Positions 23,020-34,809 of a DNA stretch of 44,148 nt are shown here, one piece after another. The notes below the pieces were generated by a model. It was given only the letters and a program-made list of their open reading frames with translations. It did not search any database and was not told the DNA's origin. The stretch comes from Chloroflexota bacterium. GTDB lineage: Bacteria > Chloroflexota > Anaerolineae > JAAEKA01. Every line of letters begins with the position of its first letter. Positions within the stretch are counted from its first letter, which is position 1. The stretch covers positions 1-44,148 of the forward strand of contig JAYELL010000039.1 of NCBI GenBank assembly GCA_034717495.1, in the 5' to 3' direction. A program made the translations under genes and the position numbers.

Positions 23020-23994
23020 TTACTTCGTACGGATGACGCTAATCAGCACCGCTACAAGGATAATCAACCCCCGGATCACTTCCTGGGCAAAGGGGTTAAT
23101 GCCCATCAATACCATGCCATTGCCGAGCAGACCGATGAACAGTACCCCCAAAAAGGTGCCGAAGATCGTTCCCTCGCCGCCCATCAGACTGGTGCCGCCG
23201 ATGATGACCGCCGCGATGACCTCAAACTCCAGGCCCATCGCAATGTTCGATGATCCGGACATGATTCTGGACGACAGGATGATGCCGCTGAAGGCTGACA
23301 GAAATCCAACCAGGGCAAAGGTTGTGATGCGCGTCTTCCATACGCTGATACCCGAGAGTCTCGCAGACTCTTCGTTACCCCCAACGGCGTAGACCGATCG
23401 GCCATACACGGTGCGGATACTGATGAAGTGGAAAATAACAAAGGTCACCAGCATGATGATCACTGGTACCGGAATCACGTCGAAAACGTAACCGCCTCCC
23501 CAGAAGTTGAATCCGTCACTGAATGGGGTAATGGGAAAGGCATTGGTGATCAGCCGGGCTGCGCCCCGGAGGCTCATAAACAGGGCCAGAGTGACCACGA
23601 AGGCCGGCACCGCCCACTTCACCCGAATATAGCCGGCGGCGGCGTGAATGGCTGCTCCCTGAATCACCACGAAAATCACAGCGAGCCAGAGGGGCCAGCC
23701 TTGCTGGATTGCCAGTACCCCTAACAGTGCCGAGGCCCAGGCTACGGCGGAGCCGACACTCACATCAATGTCGCCGGAGATAATCATAAAAGTCATGCCA
23801 CAAGCGATAATGCCGTTGAATGCGACCGCCCGCAGCACGTTCAGCAGATTTCTGGGTGTGAGAAAGTTAGGCGCAAAGATCGCCAGGCCAAGAAACAGAA
23901 TAACCAGGGCAATCAAAAGACCCGAACGAGAGGCAAGATCGCCAGCCTTTGAGGAAAATGTTGGCTTGGATTGGGTTTCAACTGCGTTTGTCAT
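23020..23994 (-). CDS. Sugar ABC transporter permease (RbsC-like)
   Basis: 324 residues with about nine to ten hydrophobic segments and the BPD_transp_2 signature region: NVLRAVAFNGIIACGMTFMIISGDIDVSVGS, the usual ligand-gate and ATPase-coupling helix, and later LVGFLSAFSGIILSSR and GGTSLMGGEGTIFGTFLGVLFIGLLGNGM. It forms a homodimeric membrane pore for pentose or hexose import. The start overlaps the ATPase stop by ATGA. It is the last gene of the long carbohydrate operon. Confidence 0.92.
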   Translation of the reverse strand: MTNAVETQSKPTFSSKAGDLASRSGLLIALVILFLGLAIFAPNFLTPRNLLNVLRAVAFNGIIACGMTFMIISGDIDVSVGSAVAWASALLGVLAIQQGWPLWLAVIFVVIQGAAIHAAAGYIRVKWAVPAFVVTLALFMSLRGAARLITNAFPITPFSDGFNFWGGGYVFDVIPVPVIIMLVTFVIFHFISIRTVYGRSVYAVGGNEESARLSGISVWKTRITTFALVGFLSAFSGIILSSRIMSGSSNIAMGLEFEVIAAVIIGGTSLMGGEGTIFGTFLGVLFIGLLGNGMVLMGINPFAQEVIRGLIILVAVLISVIRTK

Positions 23995-25499
23995 TCGGAT
24001 AATTCCTCCATCGCCAGCGACATTAACTGTTCCAGGTCGACTTCATCGTGTTGTTTTTCGTGGGTTATGCGCCCCTGGTTCATGATCAGGATCCTGTCGG
24101 AAACATCCAGCACTTCCTCGATTTCCGATGACACAAACAGCACGGCCAATCCCTGCCGCGCCAGGTCGCGCACCAGCGTAAAAATCTGCTCTTTGGCCTG
24201 GATGTCGATGCCCCGTGTCGGTTCATCCATCATCAGCACTTCGGGCAGCGTGTTCAGCCAGTTGCCGATGACAACCTTCTGCTGATTGCCACCACTCAAG
24301 GTTCGCGTCTGAACGTCCAGGCTGGCTGTTCTTATATCCAGGTTTCCAACCATATCTTCGGCCAGCTCCTGTTCCTTTCCGGGATTCAAGACCCCGTTGT
24401 TGCTGACGCGCTGCAGAGAGGCCAGGGTCAGGTTATCCTCGACCGGGAATACGAGGACCAGGCCCTCCCGTTTTCTGTCTTCCGGGGTGAATCCGATTCC
24501 GTTGGCCTTCATTGCAATAGGGCCGGGTTTGTCGATGAGCGTATCGTCCACACGGATCTCGCCACTGTCGATGGGATCAAGGCCGAAAATGGCTCGCAGC
24601 AACTCTGTGCGTCCTGAGCCAAGCAGCCCGGCGATTCCCAAAACTTCACCGGACCGGAGATCCAGGGAAACATCATTCAGCAGGCCGTGGCGGTTCAGGT
24701 TTCTCACCGACAGCTTGACCCGGCCTAACTTGGCATCCCGTTGCCACTCCGTACGCTGCCAGGCGCCGCCGATCATCATGCTGGTGATGCGCTCAGGCGT
24801 GGCCTCTTCCACCGGAATCGTACCGATCTTCCTGCCATCTCGCAGTACGGTGACGCTATCGGCTACTCTGGGAATCTCCTGAAGCCGGTGCGTCACGTAG
24901 ATGATTGCCCGCCCTTGTTCAGCCAGACGACGCACGACCCTGTGTAACGTATCGACCTCTTCGGCAGGCAATGCGCTGGAGGGTTCGTCCAGTATCATCA
25001 CGCGTGGGTCAAAGGAGATGGCCTTGGCGATTTCAACCAACTGTTGCTGTGCCACATTCAGGCGAGATGCTTGCTGGGAAAGGTCAATATCAACCTCAAG
25101 CTGACCAAGCGCCTCATCAGCAGTCCGCAACATTTCTTTTCGGTCAATGAAGGTTATTCCAAGCCTTTTTTGTTTTGGCCAACGGCCCAGCAGGATGTTC
25201 TCGGCAACGGTCAATCCTGGCACCAGGCTCATTTCCTGATAGACGGTGCTAATGCCCTGCTCGAAGGAGTCCTGGGGTGATTTGAAGATCACTTCCTGAT
25301 CGTCGATGGTGATGGTTCCGTCATCGGGGCCGATCGCGCCGCTCAATATCTTCACCAGGGTAGACTTGCCGGCACCGTTTTTTCCCAGCAGGGCCCGCAC
25401 CTCGCCCGTATGCAACGTGAAATCCATATTGTCAAGGGCCTTCACACCGGGATACTGTTTACTCAGACCTCTGGTCTGCAAGATGGCGGTCATAGACAC
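23991..25499 (-). CDS. Sugar ABC importer ATPase, duplicated NBD (RbsA-like)
   Basis: 502 residues, the standard length for RbsA/MglA/XylG. First NBD: GKNGAGKSTL, LNVAQQQLVEIAKA in place of the canonical signature, and VMILDEPSSALPAEE. Second NBD: the degenerate Walker A GLLGSGRTEL, signature LSGGNQQKVVIGNWL and LMMDEPTRGIDIQA. These differences between halves are normal in the family. It powers import of the sugar delivered by the lipoprotein encoded upstream. 81 bases separate it from the binding-protein stop. Confidence 0.94.
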   Translation of the reverse strand: MSMTAILQTRGLSKQYPGVKALDNMDFTLHTGEVRALLGKNGAGKSTLVKILSGAIGPDDGTITIDDQEVIFKSPQDSFEQGISTVYQEMSLVPGLTVAENILLGRWPKQKRLGITFIDRKEMLRTADEALGQLEVDIDLSQQASRLNVAQQQLVEIAKAISFDPRVMILDEPSSALPAEEVDTLHRVVRRLAEQGRAIIYVTHRLQEIPRVADSVTVLRDGRKIGTIPVEEATPERITSMMIGGAWQRTEWQRDAKLGRVKLSVRNLNRHGLLNDVSLDLRSGEVLGIAGLLGSGRTELLRAIFGLDPIDSGEIRVDDTLIDKPGPIAMKANGIGFTPEDRKREGLVLVFPVEDNLTLASLQRVSNNGVLNPGKEQELAEDMVGNLDIRTASLDVQTRTLSGGNQQKVVIGNWLNTLPEVLMMDEPTRGIDIQAKEQIFTLVRDLARQGLAVLFVSSEIEEVLDVSDRILIMNQGRITHEKQHDEVDLEQLMSLAMEELSE

Positions 25500-25580: not shown

Positions 25581-27569
25581 TTATTCGATTTCGAAGACGG
25601 CGTTGCCCTCGGTTTCGACGAATCGATTGATCATCTCATCGTCGCCGCGACCGAAGTAGATGGTCGGGGTATTGATTACTGATTCTACCTTTTCGCCGCC
25701 GAGTACCTTCAGCATGGTCATGAAGGTGTCATAACCCATCTGGAAAGGTGCCTGGCCGGTGACACCCTGCAGGATGTCGTTGTCAGCCTGAAGCATCTGA
25801 GCCATCTGGTTGTTCATGTCGGTGCCGACCACAAACACTTCACCAGCCAGGCCGGAGGACTGAACCGCCAGCGCGTGGGCTACGGTGCCACCCTCGTTGG
25901 CAGCCCAGAGCAGGTTGATGGTGGGATTGGCTTCGAGCATGGCTTCCGACACAGGCAGCGCGTCGTCTGCCACCCAGCCGGCCTGATCGGCAACGACTTC
26001 CACACCCGGTAATTGAGTTACCTGTGTCAGGAAGCCTTCCTTGCGGGGCGGACAACCTTCGAACTGGTCGCAGTTGAGCAGGCCGATCGTAGCGTTGCCA
26101 TCCAACTGTTCTTCGATAAACTTGACGGCGGCTGCACCGGTTGTGCTGCCCAGGTCTTCGTTCTTGGTTACCAGGTATGCATCGGCGATACCCTCTTCAC
26201 TGACACAGGTGTTGAAGCAGATGATAGTGATGCCGGCTTCCTTGGCCCTCTTCAAGGCCGCAACAGAGCCATCAGCTGAGATGGGGGTGATGAGAATCGC
26301 ATCGACCCCGCGAGTGATGTAGTCGTCGATCATGCTGCTTTCCTTGGCCAGATCGTTCTCGGTGTTGCCGAGGATCAGTTCGGAACCGGCTTCGTCGGCA
26401 GCGGCTGCCATACCGTTCTGAACGGTCTGCATGAAGGTATCGCTCTGGAAGACGACGCCGGCTATGGTCAGGTCTTCGCCACTCATCATGGGCTTTTCTT
26501 CCATGGCGCCAGCATCGGCTCCGGGTACCTCGAATACCGCGTTGCCCTCGGTTTTGACGAATCGATTGATCATCTCATCGTCGCCGCGACCGAAATAGAT
26601 GGTTGGCGTGTTTTGCAGGGCGGAAACAGTCTCACCTGCCAGCGCAGCCAAGGTGGTGTTCAAGGCATCGAAGCCCATCTGGAAGGGTGCCTGGCCGGTG
26701 ACACCCTGAAGGATGTTATTATCGGCCTGAAGCATCTGGGCCATCTGGTTGTTCATGTCGGTGCCGACCACAAACACTTCACCAGCCAGGCCGGAGGACT
26801 GAACCGCCAGCGCGTGGGCCACGGTGCCACCCTCGTTGGCAGCCCAGAGCAGGTTGATGGTGGGATTGGCTTCGAGCATGGCTTCCGACACAGGCAGCGC
26901 GTCGTCTGCTACCCAGCCGGCCTGATCGGCAACGACTTCCACACCCGGTAATTGAGTTACCTGTGCCAGGAAGCCTTCCTTGCGGGGCGGACAACCTTCG
27001 AACTGGTCGCAGTTGAGCAGGCCGATCGTAGCGTTGCCATCCAACTGTTCTTCGATAAACTTGACGGCGGCTGCACCGGTTGTGCTGCCCAGGTCTTCGT
27101 TCTTGGTTACCAGGTATGCATCGGCGATACCCTCTTCACTGACACAGGTGTTGAAGCAGATGATAGTGATGCCGGCTTCCTTGGCCCTCGTCAAGGCCGC
27201 AACAGAGCCATCAGCTGAGATGGGGGTGATGAGAATCGCATCGACCCCGCGAGTGATGTAGTCGTCGATCATGCTGCTTTCCTTGGCCAGATCGTTCTCG
27301 GTGTTGCCAAGGATCAACTCGACGCCCGCTTCGTCAGCGGCTGCCTGAATACCATTCTGAACGGTCTGCATGAAGGTATCGCTCTGGAAGACAACGCCGG
27401 CTATCACCAGTTTGTCATCCTGATCGGTCGCAGGTGCCGCATCTTCAGTGCCAGGTTGTTCGTCGGAAGTGGCCGGTACTGCTGGTGCTGCAGTCGGCGC
27501 ACAGCCTGCTACGAGCAGGCCAATCATGAGCGCCAGCGCGAGGACTGGCAAAAAGCGTTTGAGATTCAT
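25581..27569 (-). CDS. Substrate-binding lipoprotein with two tandem sugar-binding units
   Basis: 662 residues, about twice the normal length for RbsB-type proteins. The signal peptide MNLKRFLPVLALALMIGLLVAGC ends in a lipobox (LVAGC), so it is membrane-anchored outside the cell. A Pro/Ala/Asp-rich linker leads to two complete Peripla_BP_4 units: about residues 52-350 and 365-662. Each has GVVFQSDTFMQTVQNG, RGVDAILITPISADG, IICFNTCVSEEG and GRGDDEMINRF. The halves are offset by 939 bases and near-identical over the middle, more divergent at the edges. ATG has GAGAGGAGAACCTG upstream. Each unit holds a pair of Cys (FNTCVSEEG, NCDQFEGC). It presumably delivers a sugar to the following RbsA/RbsC pair; two binding units on one chain may raise local capture. 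The substrate is unknown. Confidence 0.93.
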   Translation of the reverse strand: MNLKRFLPVLALALMIGLLVAGCAPTAAPAVPATSDEQPGTEDAAPATDQDDKLVIAGVVFQSDTFMQTVQNGIQAAADEAGVELILGNTENDLAKESSMIDDYITRGVDAILITPISADGSVAALTRAKEAGITIICFNTCVSEEGIADAYLVTKNEDLGSTTGAAAVKFIEEQLDGNATIGLLNCDQFEGCPPRKEGFLAQVTQLPGVEVVADQAGWVADDALPVSEAMLEANPTINLLWAANEGGTVAHALAVQSSGLAGEVFVVGTDMNNQMAQMLQADNNILQGVTGQAPFQMGFDALNTTLAALAGETVSALQNTPTIYFGRGDDEMINRFVKTEGNAVFEVPGADAGAMEEKPMMSGEDLTIAGVVFQSDTFMQTVQNGMAAAADEAGSELILGNTENDLAKESSMIDDYITRGVDAILITPISADGSVAALKRAKEAGITIICFNTCVSEEGIADAYLVTKNEDLGSTTGAAAVKFIEEQLDGNATIGLLNCDQFEGCPPRKEGFLTQVTQLPGVEVVADQAGWVADDALPVSEAMLEANPTINLLWAANEGGTVAHALAVQSSGLAGEVFVVGTDMNNQMAQMLQADNDILQGVTGQAPFQMGYDTFMTMLKVLGGEKVESVINTPTIYFGRGDDEMINRFVETEGNAVFEIE
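25800..26370. repeat. Direct repeat, copy 1 (binding-protein second half)
   Basis: About 570 bases match 26739-27309 with roughly four to six visible differences (for example ggctacggtg against ggccacggtg, and ctcttcaagg against ctcgtcaagg). Outside this block similarity falls sharply, though the proteins still align. Confidence 0.85.
26739..27309. repeat. Direct repeat, copy 2 (binding-protein first half)
   Basis: The partner of 25800-26370 at a 939-base offset, in frame, so the duplication keeps the reading frame. Long identical runs make it a hotspot for unequal recombination and for assembly collapse. Confidence 0.85.
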
Positions 27570-27684: not shown

Positions 27685-29247
27685 TCAACTCCTCAATGAC
27701 TTTTCACTTAACGGCGTAAGGTTCTGATAGAGACCATGCAATTGACCAAACGCCTGCTGGTAAGCGGCTACATAGTCCTGATAATGGCGATGGTAGGCGG
27801 GTCGGGGCTCCGTACGGCTGGTGGTCCGGGCAAAACGACGGGCAGCAGCGGCCATGTCGGGATAAATCCCTACCGCGTGGCCGCCCATGATGGCGCAGCC
27901 CAGGGCAGCAATGTCTTCCCGCTGCAGACGAACGTAGGGCACGCCCAGCACGTCAGCCTTGATCTGGTTCCAGAGATCACTGTTGGCCCCGCCGCCGATA
28001 ACCCGCACCTCGCTGAATTGAGCATCGGGGATGTATTCGCGAACGACGTCCAACGCCTGAGCATAGTCGAAAGCGATCGATTCAAGAACAGCCCGATAGA
28101 AGTGGGGTTTACGGTGCGTCCAGGTGAAGCCCAGCCAGGCACCGCGCACGTTCGGATCACTGGGGCAGGCACGACCCACCAGATGAGGAATGAACAGTAG
28201 ACCTTCGGCTCCCGGCGGGATTTCGGCTGCTTGGGCGTCGAGCAATTGATAGGCAGTCGTGCCTTCTGCCCTGGCCCTTTCGGTTTCTTCGGTGGCAAAC
28301 TGGTCCCGGTACCACCGGTGAGTCAGCCCACCACCGCTGATGTACATCATCGGGTACCAGTGGTCTTCGCCCAATGGCCCGGCCAGTGGTTGCAGCATGT
28401 TGTGGTGGGTGTCGGAAAAAAACATATTCAGCGAGGTTGCAAATACCGGAAATGTGCCGGCCACATCCACCAGCTGCCCCGCTTTCACCAGGCCTGCTCC
28501 CAGGCAGCCTGCCACCTGATCGCCAGCGCCGGCGACCAGGGGTACCCCTTCCGCCAGCCCACAGGCTGCGGCGACCTGTGCCGAGAGCTGCCCTATCACC
28601 GTAGTGGAAGGCACGACCTGGGGTAGTTTCTTCAATGGGATGCCACAGGCCCCGGCCAGTTCTTCGGACCAGGCGCGGCGGGCCGTATTACTGACGCCGA
28701 CCCACGTAAGATAGGATGGATCGATAAATGCGTCATCGGTGGACAGGTTAGCCATGCGCCCCGCCACATAGTTGGCCAGTATCAAAACCTTGTGGATACG
28801 CCGGTAGAGATCGGGATAATTGTCTTGCCACCACAGCATGCGCGGTGCCAAAAAGGGCAGCGAACCGTTGAGCGCCACCAACTTGTCACCAACTCGGTTA
28901 TGCATCTCTGCGACATAGGGTTGATAGCGATTATCCAGCGCCGATGGATACCAAGGCGTCAATGCATTCCATTCGCGATCGATGCCGATGGCGCCGGCCA
29001 TTTGGCCGGCGAAGGTGATGGCAGCGACCGACGCGGGAGAAATCCCGGTTTTTTCGACAACCTCTTCAAGGGTATCCAAAGTGGAATCAAAGAAGTCTTC
29101 ACCCCGTTGCTCGGCTCGACCCGGTGCAGGCTGGAACAACGGTGCATCGCGCGTGGCATCGGCCAGTGCCCGGCCATCGATGTCGAACAAGGAAGTCTTC
29201 ACTACACTGGTTCCCAGGTCAACGCCAATCAGATAATTTTTTGACAT
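27685..29247 (-). CDS. FGGY-family carbohydrate kinase (xylulokinase-like)
   Basis: 520 residues from ATG 29247; the longer frame to 29274 would overlap the dehydrogenase. Both FGGY halves are present: N-terminal phosphate loop GVDLGTSVVKTSLFDIDG, catalytic region ALDNRYQPY, then AGAGDQVAGCLGAG, DVAGTFPVF and C-terminal RVIGGGANSDLWNQIKADVLG. Such kinases phosphorylate xylulose, ribulose, fuculose or related ketoses; the specific sugar cannot be read by eye. Here the kinase would act on the product of the isomerase-like gene of the same operon. A 115-base gap follows before the binding protein. Confidence 0.92.
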   Translation of the reverse strand: MSKNYLIGVDLGTSVVKTSLFDIDGRALADATRDAPLFQPAPGRAEQRGEDFFDSTLDTLEEVVEKTGISPASVAAITFAGQMAGAIGIDREWNALTPWYPSALDNRYQPYVAEMHNRVGDKLVALNGSLPFLAPRMLWWQDNYPDLYRRIHKVLILANYVAGRMANLSTDDAFIDPSYLTWVGVSNTARRAWSEELAGACGIPLKKLPQVVPSTTVIGQLSAQVAAACGLAEGVPLVAGAGDQVAGCLGAGLVKAGQLVDVAGTFPVFATSLNMFFSDTHHNMLQPLAGPLGEDHWYPMMYISGGGLTHRWYRDQFATEETERARAEGTTAYQLLDAQAAEIPPGAEGLLFIPHLVGRACPSDPNVRGAWLGFTWTHRKPHFYRAVLESIAFDYAQALDVVREYIPDAQFSEVRVIGGGANSDLWNQIKADVLGVPYVRLQREDIAALGCAIMGGHAVGIYPDMAAAARRFARTTSRTEPRPAYHRHYQDYVAAYQQAFGQLHGLYQNLTPLSEKSLRS

Positions 29248-29258
29248 ATTAGGGCTTC

Positions 29259-30986
29259 TTACAGAGTCCAGCACTTTTCGATCAACACCCGTTCAGCCTG
29301 CGCGGTCCAGGTTGGGCCGGGATCCAACTGGCGGTAAACGTCGGGCAGAACCTGTTCCAGTTCAGGCAGGCTCAACAGGGGCAGGTCGATCAACTGGGGG
29401 AAAATGACAACCTTGCCGGGGTAGGCTTTCTCTAACACCGCCTGCAAACCGTGGCGCATCGCCTTCATCCCGCCAATAGCGGCAACAGTCCGGGTCGCCG
29501 ACAGAGAATTGTCCTGAATCTTTTCCAGCACCTGCAACTGGTCCGCTACGGTCGAACCGCTGGTACCGGTGAACTGCGCGCCGTACAGCGACACCCGGTC
29601 GAGCGGAAGCTTGATTGAGTTGCCTGCCTCCGCCCCGGCAAAAACCACAAGCATGCCATCAGCGGCCAAAAAAGGGAGGGCCTCTGCGACTGCTGCGGGG
29701 TTGGGAACCACCACGACAATGTCGTCGCAGCCGCGCCCGCCCGTGAGCCGGCTGATTTCACCTTGCAGCCGGCCAGGTTCCATCGTGGGGTTGAAGGCTA
29801 CCAGCTCTCGACCACTGGTTGCGGCCAGGGCGGAAAAGTCGTTGATGATACTGTTGAGGCGCTCCTGTCCCCGATTGGTAGCGATGATGGCGCGGGGACC
29901 ATTGGGCAGTTGCAGTGCCCGCTGAATATGCATTCGGCCCATGGTGCCGCCCGCTCCCAGGATCCAGATCACGCCACCGGGGCGCAGTTCAGACCGGTTG
30001 CGCTCAGTGCCGTAGGCATCGGCGATATCCGGCCCGGTGCAACCTAACAGAGCCAGATGCTGGTAGTGAAGCTTGTTCATGTCCACGGCAACAGGTTCGT
30101 CCCAGGAGTGATTCGTCACCAGATTCAACGTGCCGCGGGAGGCCAGTTGGTCAACCGCTTCTGCGACATGGTCTGCTTCCTTCGGGTCAATCAGAATGAT
30201 ATCGTCAAGACCGGTATCGGGCGCAAACTCCTCAGCCACGTCGACTGCCGACGCCCGCGGTCGCTCCGCAACGACGCCATATCGGCTGTGGAGTTCCCTG
30301 GCAAGCGATGGTGGCACGTTGGTCAGCACAATGTGTCTGCTTTTTAGCTCGCAACCGACTCGGTATGTCCGCCTGTCGCCGGGATTGCCCTTGATCCAGA
30401 GCAGGCCATCTTGTTTGGGTGTAGGACGGCGGGCGGTGGCCCTGTAGGCCACATCCACACAGGCCCATGGCTCTAGAAGAGCAATGTCGGCATAACTGAC
30501 ATCAGACAAGACTGGAAAGATGCAGCTCCCAAAATCGCTGGCAAGTACCCCCCGCTCGAGAATTACGTATTGGGCCATCGCGCCGGGGATATTGACGCCG
30601 AAAATGGTGCGCTTGCCGTCGACGTACACGTCTGGTTGAATGCCCAGGCGCTGTCCAGCGTAATACTGGGCCTGCCATCCGTCACCGACAATCACAGCAG
30701 TCAAGGCTGCTTCGTGACCCAGCCGGGCGGGATCGGCGTCGAAGTCCCGCTCAAAAAAAAGTGGGTAGTCGTGGCCCATACGAATCATCTTGGCATCGGA
30801 AGCGCATAAGCCCAGGGCATCCACTCGGACCAGAATCTCATCAGGACCACAGGTTGGCATTGTTTCCCGGACAGGTTGACCGTCTACTCCAACGCTTTCC
30901 AGACTACGGCCAGCAAAGGGCCACGTCAGGTTGTGCGAGGGCAGTGGCCCGGTCGCCTGCCTGTACTGTTGCCAGCGATCACTCAT
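29259..30986 (-). CDS. Long zinc-type alcohol/sugar dehydrogenase (MDR)
   Basis: 575 residues, well above the usual 340-400. The start is ATG 30986 in a TGATG overlap with the preceding stop; GTG 30989 is an alternative. The N-terminal GroES-like part has the catalytic zinc motif LGLCASD and GHEA, but the four-cysteine structural zinc lobe is absent and replaced by GIQPDVYVDGKRTIFG. A central insert (about residues 175-320, LKSRHIVLTNVPPSLARELHSRYGV) resembles a second nucleotide-binding-like segment. The C-terminal Rossmann fold has ILGAGGTMGRMHIQRA and RGCDDIVVVV. It probably oxidises a polyol or sugar alcohol C-OH with NAD(P). Place in the pathway is inferred from the operon. Confidence 0.85.
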   Translation of the reverse strand: MSDRWQQYRQATGPLPSHNLTWPFAGRSLESVGVDGQPVRETMPTCGPDEILVRVDALGLCASDAKMIRMGHDYPLFFERDFDADPARLGHEAALTAVIVGDGWQAQYYAGQRLGIQPDVYVDGKRTIFGVNIPGAMAQYVILERGVLASDFGSCIFPVLSDVSYADIALLEPWACVDVAYRATARRPTPKQDGLLWIKGNPGDRRTYRVGCELKSRHIVLTNVPPSLARELHSRYGVVAERPRASAVDVAEEFAPDTGLDDIILIDPKEADHVAEAVDQLASRGTLNLVTNHSWDEPVAVDMNKLHYQHLALLGCTGPDIADAYGTERNRSELRPGGVIWILGAGGTMGRMHIQRALQLPNGPRAIIATNRGQERLNSIINDFSALAATSGRELVAFNPTMEPGRLQGEISRLTGGRGCDDIVVVVPNPAAVAEALPFLAADGMLVVFAGAEAGNSIKLPLDRVSLYGAQFTGTSGSTVADQLQVLEKIQDNSLSATRTVAAIGGMKAMRHGLQAVLEKAYPGKVVIFPQLIDLPLLSLPELEQVLPDVYRQLDPGPTWTAQAERVLIEKCWTL

Positions 30987-32065
30987 CACCTGTCATTCCT
31001 GCCCGTTATTTCGCCTGCAGGCGACACGTTTGATACCCGATCGAAGCCTTGATAGGCAACGGCCCTTATTGCGGCGTGGCGCGATTCACCCGGATCGATT
31101 TTCGCAGCGGACCTGTTTTCAATGGCAGTGATTAATCCCGCCGATGGGTAGCTGGACCAGGGCTCCAGGGCCATGGTGTAAACCTGACCATACCAGGGGT
31201 AGCCATTGCTCTGGTTGAACTGACGCCATATCCACAGGTAAGGAAATGTTTCCAGCGACCAGGTGAGGGCAAGGCCGACCTGGGTTGCCTGATTGGTGAC
31301 GGCATACCAGCCTTCGGGCAGGTTGACGACGTAGCCCAGATCCTCATGGCCGGTACCGGGCGCGTCCGGGCGGCTGAAATCCACCCGGACACCGCCATCT
31401 TCAGAGACGTGGGGCCACCGGTATTGCCCGCCGCCGGTCAGTCGAGTGCCGGCGGCACCGGCGAAGGTCTCGATGAGAAGGTCGCCTGCGGGGAGATCAA
31501 CCCGGCAATCGGGCCCCAGAAAGGGTGCACCGAAGGCGGGATGGTGGCCCCACATGAAGTCCATCGCTTCGGCGCCTTCGTTGGTTAAAGCTTCTTCAAT
31601 CAACAACAGTGGCTCGCCCCGGCGCAGGGTCATGGTGCGCTGCAGGTGGAATGGGGTTCGAAAGGGGCGCACCGACAGCGTCACTTGCACCTCAGCGGGG
31701 GTGTCGGCCCCGATAAAATAATCCCACGGAATGGTAGTCACCTCACCGTGCAGCCCAAACTCGACCCCCTTGTAGGTGCAGGCGGGGCCGCCGTTGGGCA
31801 GGATCTCCTGCCAGCCACCCTGGTAGTAATCGAGAAAAGCGCCCCAGCCAGAACCGACGCTCTGGACTGCGGGGGGGCGCAGCCCGCGCGGGGTATGCAA
31901 CATGAACTCAGTATCGCTGGGTTTGTGAAGGAACTGGAAGATGTCGGCGCCCTTGTCCACCAGCACGCCGACGCGCAGAAATTCATTTTCCAGGAAGACC
32001 AGGCGCAGGCCCTGGTAGGTGTATTCAGCCAGCCGGCATTGATGATTTCGATAGGATGGCAGCAT
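30986..32065 (-). CDS. Aldose-epimerase-like (mutarotase-type) protein
   Basis: 359 residues from ATG 32065, preceded by GAGAGACCA; the frame to 32125 is rejected as it lacks a ribosome-binding site. The fold appears to be the galactose-mutarotase beta-sandwich: LENEFLRVGVLVDKGADIFQF, GFGL-type strands (YKGVEFGLHGEV), MTLRRGEPLLLIEEALTNEG and the conserved MWGHHPAFGAPFL, with a histidine pair typical of the active site. It resembles the DUF4432 group. Mutarotases convert alpha and beta anomers of a sugar. In the operon it would supply the anomer used by the isomerase or dehydrogenase. Confidence 0.75.
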   Translation of the reverse strand: MLPSYRNHQCRLAEYTYQGLRLVFLENEFLRVGVLVDKGADIFQFLHKPSDTEFMLHTPRGLRPPAVQSVGSGWGAFLDYYQGGWQEILPNGGPACTYKGVEFGLHGEVTTIPWDYFIGADTPAEVQVTLSVRPFRTPFHLQRTMTLRRGEPLLLIEEALTNEGAEAMDFMWGHHPAFGAPFLGPDCRVDLPAGDLLIETFAGAAGTRLTGGGQYRWPHVSEDGGVRVDFSRPDAPGTGHEDLGYVVNLPEGWYAVTNQATQVGLALTWSLETFPYLWIWRQFNQSNGYPWYGQVYTMALEPWSSYPSAGLITAIENRSAAKIDPGESRHAAIRAVAYQGFDRVSNVSPAGEITGRNDR

Positions 32066-32141
32066 TGGTCTCTCTCGTTCGAAATCGGTTGAGTGGCAGG
32101 TGGGACAGGTCCTGCCCGTAGCCATGGGGTTACCCCTACCT

Positions 32142-33665
32142 CTAGTTCATCGAAGCCAGTGTATCCAGGTGTTCCTGCATCGACTGGTTAGAATCGAGCC
32201 GCACGATCGGAATTCCCATCTGGCGGCATGCGTAGGTGACTTCCCGGGATACATCGCCATTGGTGGCGACAGGGTGGTTGGAGGCGGCTATACGGAAAAG
32301 CAGGTCGGGATCAGTGCCGAGACTGATCATCACGTTGGGCCACATCTGGCCAAAGAAGCCCATTACCTTGTCTTCGACCGCTCCTTCCACGGCTACCGAC
32401 TCGCCCACTCCCAGGTGCATTACATACTGTCCTTTAACACGTCCCAGCCGGGCGGTGGTGACGGGACCCGCCTGGCCCATGAATCCAACCGCCGCGCCGG
32501 TGAAGCCATCGACGTTGGCCTGGATAGTGACGTTGGGTAGTGACTTCCTGGGATCGTTGCTTCTGCCAGCCCACCACACCGAGGCTGCGCCGCAGTTGGA
32601 GACGGCAAAGAAATCCTCGCCCATATACTTCAGGTCGCCAAAGATGGGACCGATCTCGGGCTTGATCTGCTGCAAAAGCACCGCGGTCATCAGTCCCTTG
32701 ATGTCACCCTCGCAGACGGTGGAAATGATGGGTTTGGGACCGAGATCATCTGCGCCGAAGGGCAGAAAAGCCGGAAGGGTGCAACCAACAATACCGTATT
32801 CGACCGAAAGAGTGGGCTGGCAGCGGACCGATACGCCGATGATGTTTTCGCTTTCCAGCTCCTTGAGGCGGTCACGGGCAGCCAGATAGAAAGCAACCTG
32901 CACCTGGAAATTGCGCGGACTTGCGCTGAGGTCATCGTAGATAATGGTAGTGCCGTTGTCGTAGAGCCAATCGAGGAAATGTTGTACCCGCTCCGGCTCG
33001 GAGTCGAGGATGTTTTCAGCCCGGCGGATTAGGGCATATTCGCCCTCGTTGAGAATGTCGCGGATCATCAATCGTTTTAGAGCGGGGATATCGTCCTGCA
33101 GATGCTCCATGTGAAGGGAGTAGGTGCCGCCCCATAGCATCACCGCGCTCCTGCGCATCCGGGCCACCGCGGACACGCCGCGAATCCAGGCCAACATGCG
33201 TTCAGGTTGTCCTCGGAGCCGCTCGTGTTGCACGGCATGCTGGTTGACGCCCGACTCCAGCAGGCTGGCTCCCACCGCGCTGATGCTGACAGTGCCGGGC
33301 AGGGCGGGATCATCCACGGTGTAGAGCATGGTGGGCAGGTTGGCCTCACGCACAAGGTCGATTACCACCATCGGAGGTGTCCAGAAGTGGGAACAGAGGA
33401 TCATGCATTCGGCCCCCTTGGCCTGCAGATAACGGGCACAATGAGCGGCTTCCTCGTAGCGTCGCACACCGAACCAGTCGTTGGGATCTGGCCGCAGGCT
33501 TGCCATGGGATCCACCACCTGGCAATCGTGGTCGTTGAGGAATGTGATCAACTCCTGGTGCTGCTCGCGCAGGTAGGTCTCGCGTGGCAGATCGAAGAAG
33601 GAGTCTCGACCATCGGTGAAGGAGATTAGGCCAACTTTCGGTTTTGAACCTCGTTGTTCTGGCAT
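32142..33665 (-). CDS. L-fucose/L-arabinose isomerase-like protein
   Basis: 507 residues from ATG 33665 with AGGGGAACTATCA upstream. Family features: N-terminal GLISFTDGRDSF, the ILCSHFWTPP stretch, CEGDIKGLMTAVLLQQI resembling the metal-ligand helix EADI-GALT of L-fucose isomerases, and a late FMGQAGPVTTARLGRVKG. These enzymes interconvert aldoses and ketoses with a Mn ion bound by Glu, Asp and His. An unusual, divergent member: the N-terminal segment shows no obvious canonical metal Glu. It probably isomerises the imported sugar before the FGGY kinase. Function is by family and context only. Confidence 0.75.
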   Translation of the reverse strand: MPEQRGSKPKVGLISFTDGRDSFFDLPRETYLREQHQELITFLNDHDCQVVDPMASLRPDPNDWFGVRRYEEAAHCARYLQAKGAECMILCSHFWTPPMVVIDLVREANLPTMLYTVDDPALPGTVSISAVGASLLESGVNQHAVQHERLRGQPERMLAWIRGVSAVARMRRSAVMLWGGTYSLHMEHLQDDIPALKRLMIRDILNEGEYALIRRAENILDSEPERVQHFLDWLYDNGTTIIYDDLSASPRNFQVQVAFYLAARDRLKELESENIIGVSVRCQPTLSVEYGIVGCTLPAFLPFGADDLGPKPIISTVCEGDIKGLMTAVLLQQIKPEIGPIFGDLKYMGEDFFAVSNCGAASVWWAGRSNDPRKSLPNVTIQANVDGFTGAAVGFMGQAGPVTTARLGRVKGQYVMHLGVGESVAVEGAVEDKVMGFFGQMWPNVMISLGTDPDLLFRIAASNHPVATNGDVSREVTYACRQMGIPIVRLDSNQSMQEHLDTLASMN

Positions 33666-33681
33666 TGATAGTTCCCCTACT

Positions 33682-34809
33682 TTACTTGTACTGACCGTAC
33701 GATTGCGCAGTTTCAAACATGGCAATGATGATTTCCGGCCTGACGTCGATCATGTGGTTGCAGGAGGCCAATACATAGCCACCGCCCGGGCCCAGGGCGT
33801 CGATACGGTCCTTGACCTCGGTGACCACCTGGTCTACCGATGGATCGCCTTCCAGCCCTTCGATGGCACCGTGGAAGGTGAGAGCGTCACCGTACGCGGC
33901 TTTCAATCGGCGGGCGTCCATTCCTTCGGTAGATGTCTGTACTGGATTGAGCACGTTAACACCCACCTCCAGGAAGTCGGGGATCACGTCAAAGACCGCG
34001 CCATCGGTGTGGCGGAAGAGGACCGAATGGGGCGCCTTTTCGTGGATCAGAGCGTAGAGTTCCTGCTCGGCCGGTTTGATGAATTCGCGGTACATTTTCG
34101 GCGAGATGAGCAGGCTTCGGTTGCTTCCCAGGTCATCGCCGATTTCGACCATGTGCACATAAGGACCTACCGCGTCCAGGAACATCCCGTAAACATCCTT
34201 GTATATTTCCAGCAAATGGGCAATGATTGCCCTGGCCACATCGGGATAAAGGGCCAGCACCATCATGAATTCCGACATCTCCATGATCTGGCAGGCGCGA
34301 TCCAGGAAGCCAAAGGTGATGGGGTTGCGGGCTACCAGCGCGTAGTCGGTATCTTTGGTCAGCCGCCGAGCTTCCACAGCCAGCTCCTCTGTGGTAAATA
34401 GCTCTTCAGCGGTAGGCCAGTTGTGGGCCTCCACTTCCCGGACAGTAGTTGCGCCCTGCAGGGGGCTTCGGACGATATTGACGTACAGGCCAGCCTTTCG
34501 ATAGCCTACACCCCATGGATCGATGGTGGTGCCGTCGTCCAGGACCGTGCTTTTGGCGGTGGGGTTCTTTGGCAGGAAGAGGCGGCGGAAGTCGATGTCG
34601 AAGTATTCCAGGATTCGTTCGTCGTAGTAGTTGGCCGTGGTACCTGATCGAACAGGAGGGATTGGTTCCAGATCAAGATGATCTCGCAGCCGGAGATAGG
34701 TCTCATCCAGCAGCATGGTAGCGTTGCCCATCAAATCGAGGGGCACGCGGTCAGGTTCCTGGTGGTTGAAAGCTGCAAGTACGCGCTGGCGGTGGCTGTA
34801 GGCAGGCAT
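33682..34809 (-). CDS. URO-D/MtaA-superfamily protein
   Basis: 375 residues, family length. MPAYSHRQRVLAAFNHQEPDRVPLDL is the standard start of uroporphyrinogen-decarboxylase-fold proteins outside haem synthesis, and the barrel continues with ITFGFLDRACQIMEM, VLFRHTDGAVFDVIPDFLEVGVNVLNPVQ and GDALTFHGAIEGLEG. The HemE active-site motif RQAGR is absent, so this is not the haem enzyme. Related proteins include cobalamin-dependent methyltransferases, with zinc held by His and Cys; HTDG and ASCNH are candidate positions. GAGGAAAAA precedes the ATG, and a stem-loop lies in the leader. First of four related genes in this locus. I cannot assign the substrate; a demethylase or methyl-transfer role on a methylated sugar is one possibility. 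Confidence 0.85.
   Translation of the reverse strand: MPAYSHRQRVLAAFNHQEPDRVPLDLMGNATMLLDETYLRLRDHLDLEPIPPVRSGTTANYYDERILEYFDIDFRRLFLPKNPTAKSTVLDDGTTIDPWGVGYRKAGLYVNIVRSPLQGATTVREVEAHNWPTAEELFTTEELAVEARRLTKDTDYALVARNPITFGFLDRACQIMEMSEFMMVLALYPDVARAIIAHLLEIYKDVYGMFLDAVGPYVHMVEIGDDLGSNRSLLISPKMYREFIKPAEQELYALIHEKAPHSVLFRHTDGAVFDVIPDFLEVGVNVLNPVQTSTEGMDARRLKAAYGDALTFHGAIEGLEGDPSVDQVVTEVKDRIDALGPGGGYVLASCNHMIDVRPEIIIAMFETAQSYGQYK

Follow-up and report, generated by a model that had tools for sequence, protein, structure and literature searches.

In the ABC importer GlnPQ, two tandem substrate-binding domains serve a single importer; these domains are described as linked to the membrane domain and as differing in specificity and affinity (PMC8025302). 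The protein presented in this study likewise has two tandem binding domains for one ABC importer, but in comparison with that account of GlnPQ its chain is a separate ORF, i.e., a predicted lipoprotein, and the pocket positions are identical in both units. Partial gene conversion is described for mtrA-1 and mtrA-2 of methanogens, of which one domain is homogenised and other parts are kept apart (PMC4632066). The two units of the present protein similarly appear to be old duplicates with one homogenised part and other parts apart; mtrA-1 and mtrA-2, however, are two genes with different transmembrane parts, whereas the units here share one reading frame. Long-lasting concerted evolution in prokaryotes, in which paralogues are closer to each other within a genome than to their orthologues, is reported for 26 genes in a study whose main text contains neither the term "ABC transporter" nor "substrate-binding" (PMC6053082). 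The core of the present gene is also closer within its genome, although the cases outlined in that text are separate genes. Among the best-matching open-licence articles, judged by title and the start of the abstract, none dealt with tandem sugar-binding lipoproteins of Chloroflexota or with exchange within them, which is weak evidence of absence.

The window, i.e., the whole stretch of 44,148 nucleotides of Chloroflexota DNA analysed here, contains an ORF with bounds at exactly 25581 and 27569 on the reverse strand. Its 662-residue product holds two PF13407 stretches (283.9 bits against a curated cut-off of 35.1), in agreement with the preliminary description, which had placed two sugar-binding units on one lipoprotein; the lipoprotein nature is a prediction. 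The gene, the parts of its product, and its neighbours are as follows.

25581..27569, (-) strand: tandem sugar-binding lipoprotein gene, ORF of 662 aa with two Peripla_BP_4 units
27501..27569, (-) strand: signal peptide, residues 1-23, read by eye from the translation, with the lipobox-like motif LVAGC
26535..27410, (-) strand: unit 1, residues 54-345, from the unit split
26472..26534, (-) strand: linker, residues 346-366 (21 residues), outside the repeat, from the unit comparison and split
25584..26471, (-) strand: unit 2 and C-terminal end, residues 367-662 (unit proper 367-658), from the unit split and structure model
23991..25499, (-) strand: sugar ABC transporter ATPase (AraG/RbsA-like), directly downstream, from ORF and profile matches
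23020..23994, (-) strand: permease (AraH/RbsC-like), from ORF and profile matches
27685..29274, (-) strand: FGGY carbohydrate kinase, upstream in the same cluster, from ORF and profile matches

The binding-protein gene adjoins the genes for the two-cassette ATPase and the BPD_transp_2 permease, and its product is a two-headed sugar receptor, presumably lipid-anchored, that serves one ATPase/permease pair. The upstream part of the cluster (27685-34809) is a sugar cluster that encodes the FGGY kinase, an alcohol dehydrogenase (576 aa), a DUF4432 protein, a fucose-isomerase-like protein with only a weak match to sulfoquinovose isomerase, and a URO-D-like protein (URO-D/MtaA-like). The same gene order, without the DUF4432 match, is found at one related locus (L040). 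Promoter-like matches were given no weight.

The structure model of the unit 2 stretch with its C-terminal end has a mean pLDDT of 88.9, and the unit model takes the ribose-type fold of 2fn9 (Foldseek; TM = 0.85/0.90, E = 1.4e-23). A model of the whole tandem (mean pLDDT 58.3) was discarded. In the fold of each unit and in its PF13407 match the protein resembles CUT2 ribose-type proteins, i.e., Thermotoga maritima 2fn9 and Escherichia coli RbsB, and the combination of an AraG/RbsA-like ATPase with one permease resembles RbsB-type operons; unlike 2fn9 and RbsB, chains of the window type carry two or three units. Alignment to 2ioy places the positions equivalent to the ribose contacts of RbsB-type proteins at Phe13, Met14, Asn87, Thr88, Arg143, Asn192, Asp218, and Gln240 of the unit. 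These eight positions are identical in both units of the window protein and invariant over 12 units, and both heads should therefore bind the same ligand. Asn87 and Thr88 fall at the positions of Asp89 and Arg90 of RbsB, and this replacement of the usual Asp and Arg suggests, from the alignment, that the ligand need not be ribose. The scores (134.3 bits for both units and 69.8 bits for unit 1) do not reach the NCBIfam RbsB equivalog cut-off of 337, and the sugar is left unnamed here because the scores lie far under the NCBIfam equivalog cut-offs. Four cysteine residues (unit residues 85, 89, 134, and 140, in the motifs CFNTC and NCDQFEGC) are invariant in the 12 units, including that of Vibrio; in an exported protein they may form disulphides.

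The two units align without gaps at an offset of 939 nt (313 codons), and their identity is distributed over the following parts.

26742..27308, (-) strand: homogenised core of unit 1, codons 88-276, with 4 differences in 567 nt to its partner
25803..26369, (-) strand: homogenised core of unit 2, codons 401-589, from the unit alignment
27309..27356, (-) strand: divergent N-side patch of unit 1, codons 72-87, the second half of helix 1 and strand 2 (helix from the unit model), with 15 of 48 bases differing
26370..26417, (-) strand: divergent N-side patch of unit 2, codons 385-400, from the unit alignment
26610..26672, (-) strand: divergent C-side patch of unit 1, codons 300-320, made up largely of the helix at unit-model residues 242-257, with 34 of 63 bases differing
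25671..25733, (-) strand: divergent C-side patch of unit 2, codons 613-633, from the unit alignment

The cores are 99.3% identical, and the four differing bases lie in codons 127, 202, 220, and 250. Within the gene the core identity is thus 99% at the nucleotide level, compared with 70-77% to relatives. The near-identical centre of about 570 bases and the clearly different edges noted in the preliminary description are both borne out, with one refinement: the outermost ends are alike again (codons 60-71 and 326-338 are identical to their partners), so that the profile is a core, then a divergent patch, then a conserved rim. Divergence varies along the repeat: the longest identical stretch spans 74 codons, whereas the average over 10,000 permutations is 22.4 codons (p ~1e-4), and when synonymous differences alone are counted the longest clean run is 128 codons (p = 0.0002, the floor of 5,000 permutations). 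The differing codons comprise 31 synonymous and 21 nonsynonymous ones, and synonymous differences amount to 29/104 in the outer 40% of the unit versus 3/158 in the inner 60%. At fourfold-degenerate sites of the C-side patch, 6 of 10 differ within the gene, a level like that seen when the window gene is compared with L042, a two-unit relative from another genome (8/14 and 9/11), and none of 45 differ in core columns 36-140; the patches therefore appear to be old and the core young.

The same synonymous sites bear on whether the gene is simply a recent duplicate whose ends evolve quickly, by selection or relaxed constraint, with no exchange between the units. The C-side helix is indeed the most variable element in the tandem members, including one whose core is not homogenised (L033), and it varies between species. 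The synonymous differences, however, cluster in the same patches, which amino-acid selection does not produce, and in another Chloroflexota gene, L139 (G242:C5), synonymous differences (36) far outnumber amino-acid differences (4) and are concentrated at the ends (34/130 versus 2/195). We regard the plain duplication as most improbable and disfavour it; since amino-acid selection alone cannot yield patchwise synonymous change, an older duplication homogenised in its centre is the best reading.

It is also very unlikely that the profile is an artefact in which a short-read assembler fused two similar cores into one consensus that was then walked twice. The genome that includes the window is split into 120 contigs, of which the window is one, most relatives come from metagenome assemblies, and in genome G285 the gene is cut by contig ends within the unit. 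Isolated single-base differences nevertheless remain in the window core, and merging would be expected to erase these first; L139, whose genome is assembled in 9 contigs and which sits on one of 1,005,150 bases, shows the pattern too, and the two-unit layout is repeated in independent assemblies.

One scan of the genome collection with the window gene gave 9 loci. The numbers of units are two in L033 and L034, three in L035, and one in L036, and single units are found in L037 (a Rhodobacteraceae genome) and L039 (Vibrio penaeicida). L038, L040, and L041 are interrupted by contig ends: contigs of two metagenome assemblies stop inside the gene, at the start of locus L038 and at the ends of loci L040 and L041, as expected if near-identical units confuse assembly. 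L042 (two units) was added by a search of the class. At E 1e-40, matches were found in 1 of 400 genomes of the phylum (the window genome only), 8 of 396 of the class, and 1 of 6 of the order. The ATPase and permease genes directly follow the binding-protein gene in L033 to L039, regardless of unit number. Plasmid records hold related binding proteins in Rhizobium, Ensifer, Thioclava, and others (861 records), and the one record examined has a single unit beside the ATPase and permease. ORFs with two PF13407 matches were absent from the V. penaeicida genome (45 matches) and the Rhodobacteraceae genome (5 matches).

The geometry of the window gene recurs in L034, which has 221 consecutive identical codons between its units and differing ends, and in six other genes (see below); L035 is an intermediate of homogenisation. 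L033 and L042, on the other hand, show synonymous differences along the entire unit (83 and 60, respectively). In L033, 10 of the 20 amino-acid differences between the units lie within 26 columns. In a tree of the core, units 1 and 2 of the window gene are joined at 100/100, and a pairing of window unit 2 with unit 2 of L042 is rejected (p-AU = 4e-56). The end tree of the window family is weak: the two window units pair with each other at 69/89, and a positional grouping that places window unit 2 with unit 2 of L042 is neither favoured nor rejected (p-AU = 0.18). Informative sites between the window gene and L042 number 6 for the same position versus 5 crossed, or 5 versus 5 on another alignment, and in protein sequence the C-side stretch of window unit 2 shares 21 of 26 positions with L042 unit 2 and 13 of 26 with window unit 1.

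Two further explanations involve recombination of other kinds. The first is turnover of an array by unequal crossing-over, in which the core is the site where crossovers are resolved and two-unit genes are snapshots between gain and loss. One unit (L036), two (the window, L033, L034, and L042), or three (L035) stand beside the same transporter genes, and the three-unit gene L127 (G105:C3) has 609 of 618 codons identical between its units, linkers included; the latter is a recent array expansion, and arrays therefore also grow. In the window gene, however, the edges and the number of units have both been retained, an outcome that conversion reaches in one event and crossovers in two, and the two linkers of L035 are unlike each other. 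We consider such turnover possible rather than probable as the main account, and it is compatible with conversion. The second is a recent duplication of the unit whose ends were then swapped in by recombination with a different binding-protein gene. It would leave the same profile, and direct support for it from the tools used was nil. The ends of both units are still typical of the family, and the window genome contains no donor of such similarity (the next-best matches are 23-30% identical over long stretches, with one short piece at 33%); we judge this origin to be extremely unlikely.

The order of events is clearest in a sister family of three genomes (G105:C43, G209:C151, and G285:C122). 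In the end columns, all first units are separated from the second units at 100/100, and pairing within a genome is rejected (p-AU = 3e-77). In the middle columns the positional grouping is itself rejected (p-AU = 4e-5), and the two units of G209 are joined at 100/99; the pair of G105 has no resolved grouping there. Between G105 and G209, sites supporting the same position and the same genome number 46 and 4 in the ends versus 2 and 27 in the middle (Fisher, 1e-14). The corresponding numbers between G105 and G285, 46 and 9 versus 7 and 9 (Fisher, 0.003), form a weaker contrast. The end and middle trees and these sites together place the duplication before the genomes diverged, with homogenisation of the middle coming afterwards, in G209 at least. 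The earlier proposal of an old duplication homogenised by gene conversion is thus sustained in part: homogenisation is well supported by the synonymous profile and seven further genes, and conversion or an equivalent exchange is as well, with unequal crossing-over being able to do the same job, whereas the greater age of the duplication is proven in the sister family only.

The proposal that selection keeps the edges different fared similarly. The three genomes of the sister family share 22 fixed amino-acid differences that set the first unit apart from the second, and columns 67-215 contain none of these. When the genomes are compared with each other, the C-side stretch of unit 2 has accumulated 12-14 synonymous changes against 0-1 at the amino-acid level, which is purifying selection on a sequence specific to its position. 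Among the structural elements in the window family, the largest within-gene difference falls in the helix at unit residues 242-257 (2.25 per residue over six comparisons), compared with 1.50 for the loop and strand that follow it and 0-0.75 for the other elements, but this helix also varies freely between species. We offer tentatively the idea that, across this class of Chloroflexota proteins, selection might hold two patches position-specific, one around helix 1 and the other at the helix that follows the pocket glutamine, while exchange keeps the pockets identical; the patches might, for instance, serve the inner and outer heads as surfaces for docking or orientation.

Multi-unit genes are not confined to this locus. 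The window genome has 33 PF13407 matches above the cut-off, 11 of which sit in 5 multi-unit ORFs, and multi-unit PF13407 ORFs are present in further Chloroflexota genomes. One binding protein of the window genome (L005, L122; G000:C4) has three units in 906 aa that are diverged throughout. The clustering of synonymous differences was tested in 26 multi-unit sugar-binding genes from 10 Chloroflexota genomes (28 rows minus the two antisense rows L034-3388 and L035-5962; six other antisense frames were also dropped, and L135 (G005:C30) was excluded because its units have too few words in common). Clustering at the permutation floor was found in 8 of the 26 (the window gene, L034, L119, L120, L124, L131, L134, and L139), a fraction that is not a phylum frequency since the genomes were picked for holding multi-unit hits. 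In all 8 genes the identical stretch is central or touches one end only, and the edge-versus-centre comparison gives Fisher values below 0.001 in seven and 0.055 in L119. The units of L124 differ on the C side alone, and the C side alone is visible in L131, the first unit of which starts at a contig end. The other 18 fell short of the floor, several being diverged throughout and five near-identical throughout, and the reverse pattern, with ends alike and the centre diverged, was seen in none of the 26 genes tested. In the other families with two genomes, the sites are almost exclusively of the same-genome kind over the whole unit, and these families therefore do not date the duplication.

The reading that we consider highly probable is that the binding unit was duplicated in frame and that the direct repeats then exchanged sequence, which homogenised the centre and left a two-headed receptor for one ligand. 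The duplication would be older than the present core sequence. The later exchange, presumably RecA-dependent, would be gene conversion or paired unequal crossovers on sister chromosomes; the two are inseparable here, and because relatives hold one, two, or three units, both probably act. Exchange tracts would have to start and stop within homology, so that the centre would be copied most and the ends least, and ends that had drifted would then bar later exchange; this would give a core that looks recently copied between patches that look like old paralogues. With all pocket positions inside the copied part and the invariant rim, both heads would keep the same ligand, and the tandem would give more receptors per anchor without wider specificity. 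A neutral simulation, in which exchange was restricted to tracts ending in identity and selection was absent, gave U-shaped divergence and never the reverse. At each of the two highest conversion rates only a few of the 20 runs reached a sharp plateau (3 and 4 runs), and at lower rates none did. Under earlier settings, mutation that was too fast gave no pattern, and the next setting gave a trend only.

Of more interest than the single gene is that homogenised cores recur in Chloroflexota lipoproteins with several sugar-binding heads. There is a warning here for metagenomics, in that assemblies may truncate such tandem genes or put them together wrongly. In GlnPQ, the best-studied case of tandem binding domains, the domains differ in specificity, whereas the heads described here should have one specificity, and the DNA record suggests that exchange has maintained it repeatedly, in several genes and several genomes. 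These genes would offer a natural system in which to study how exchange works within a single bacterial reading frame, with the core copied and the ends escaping, and what a second identical head may add to uptake.
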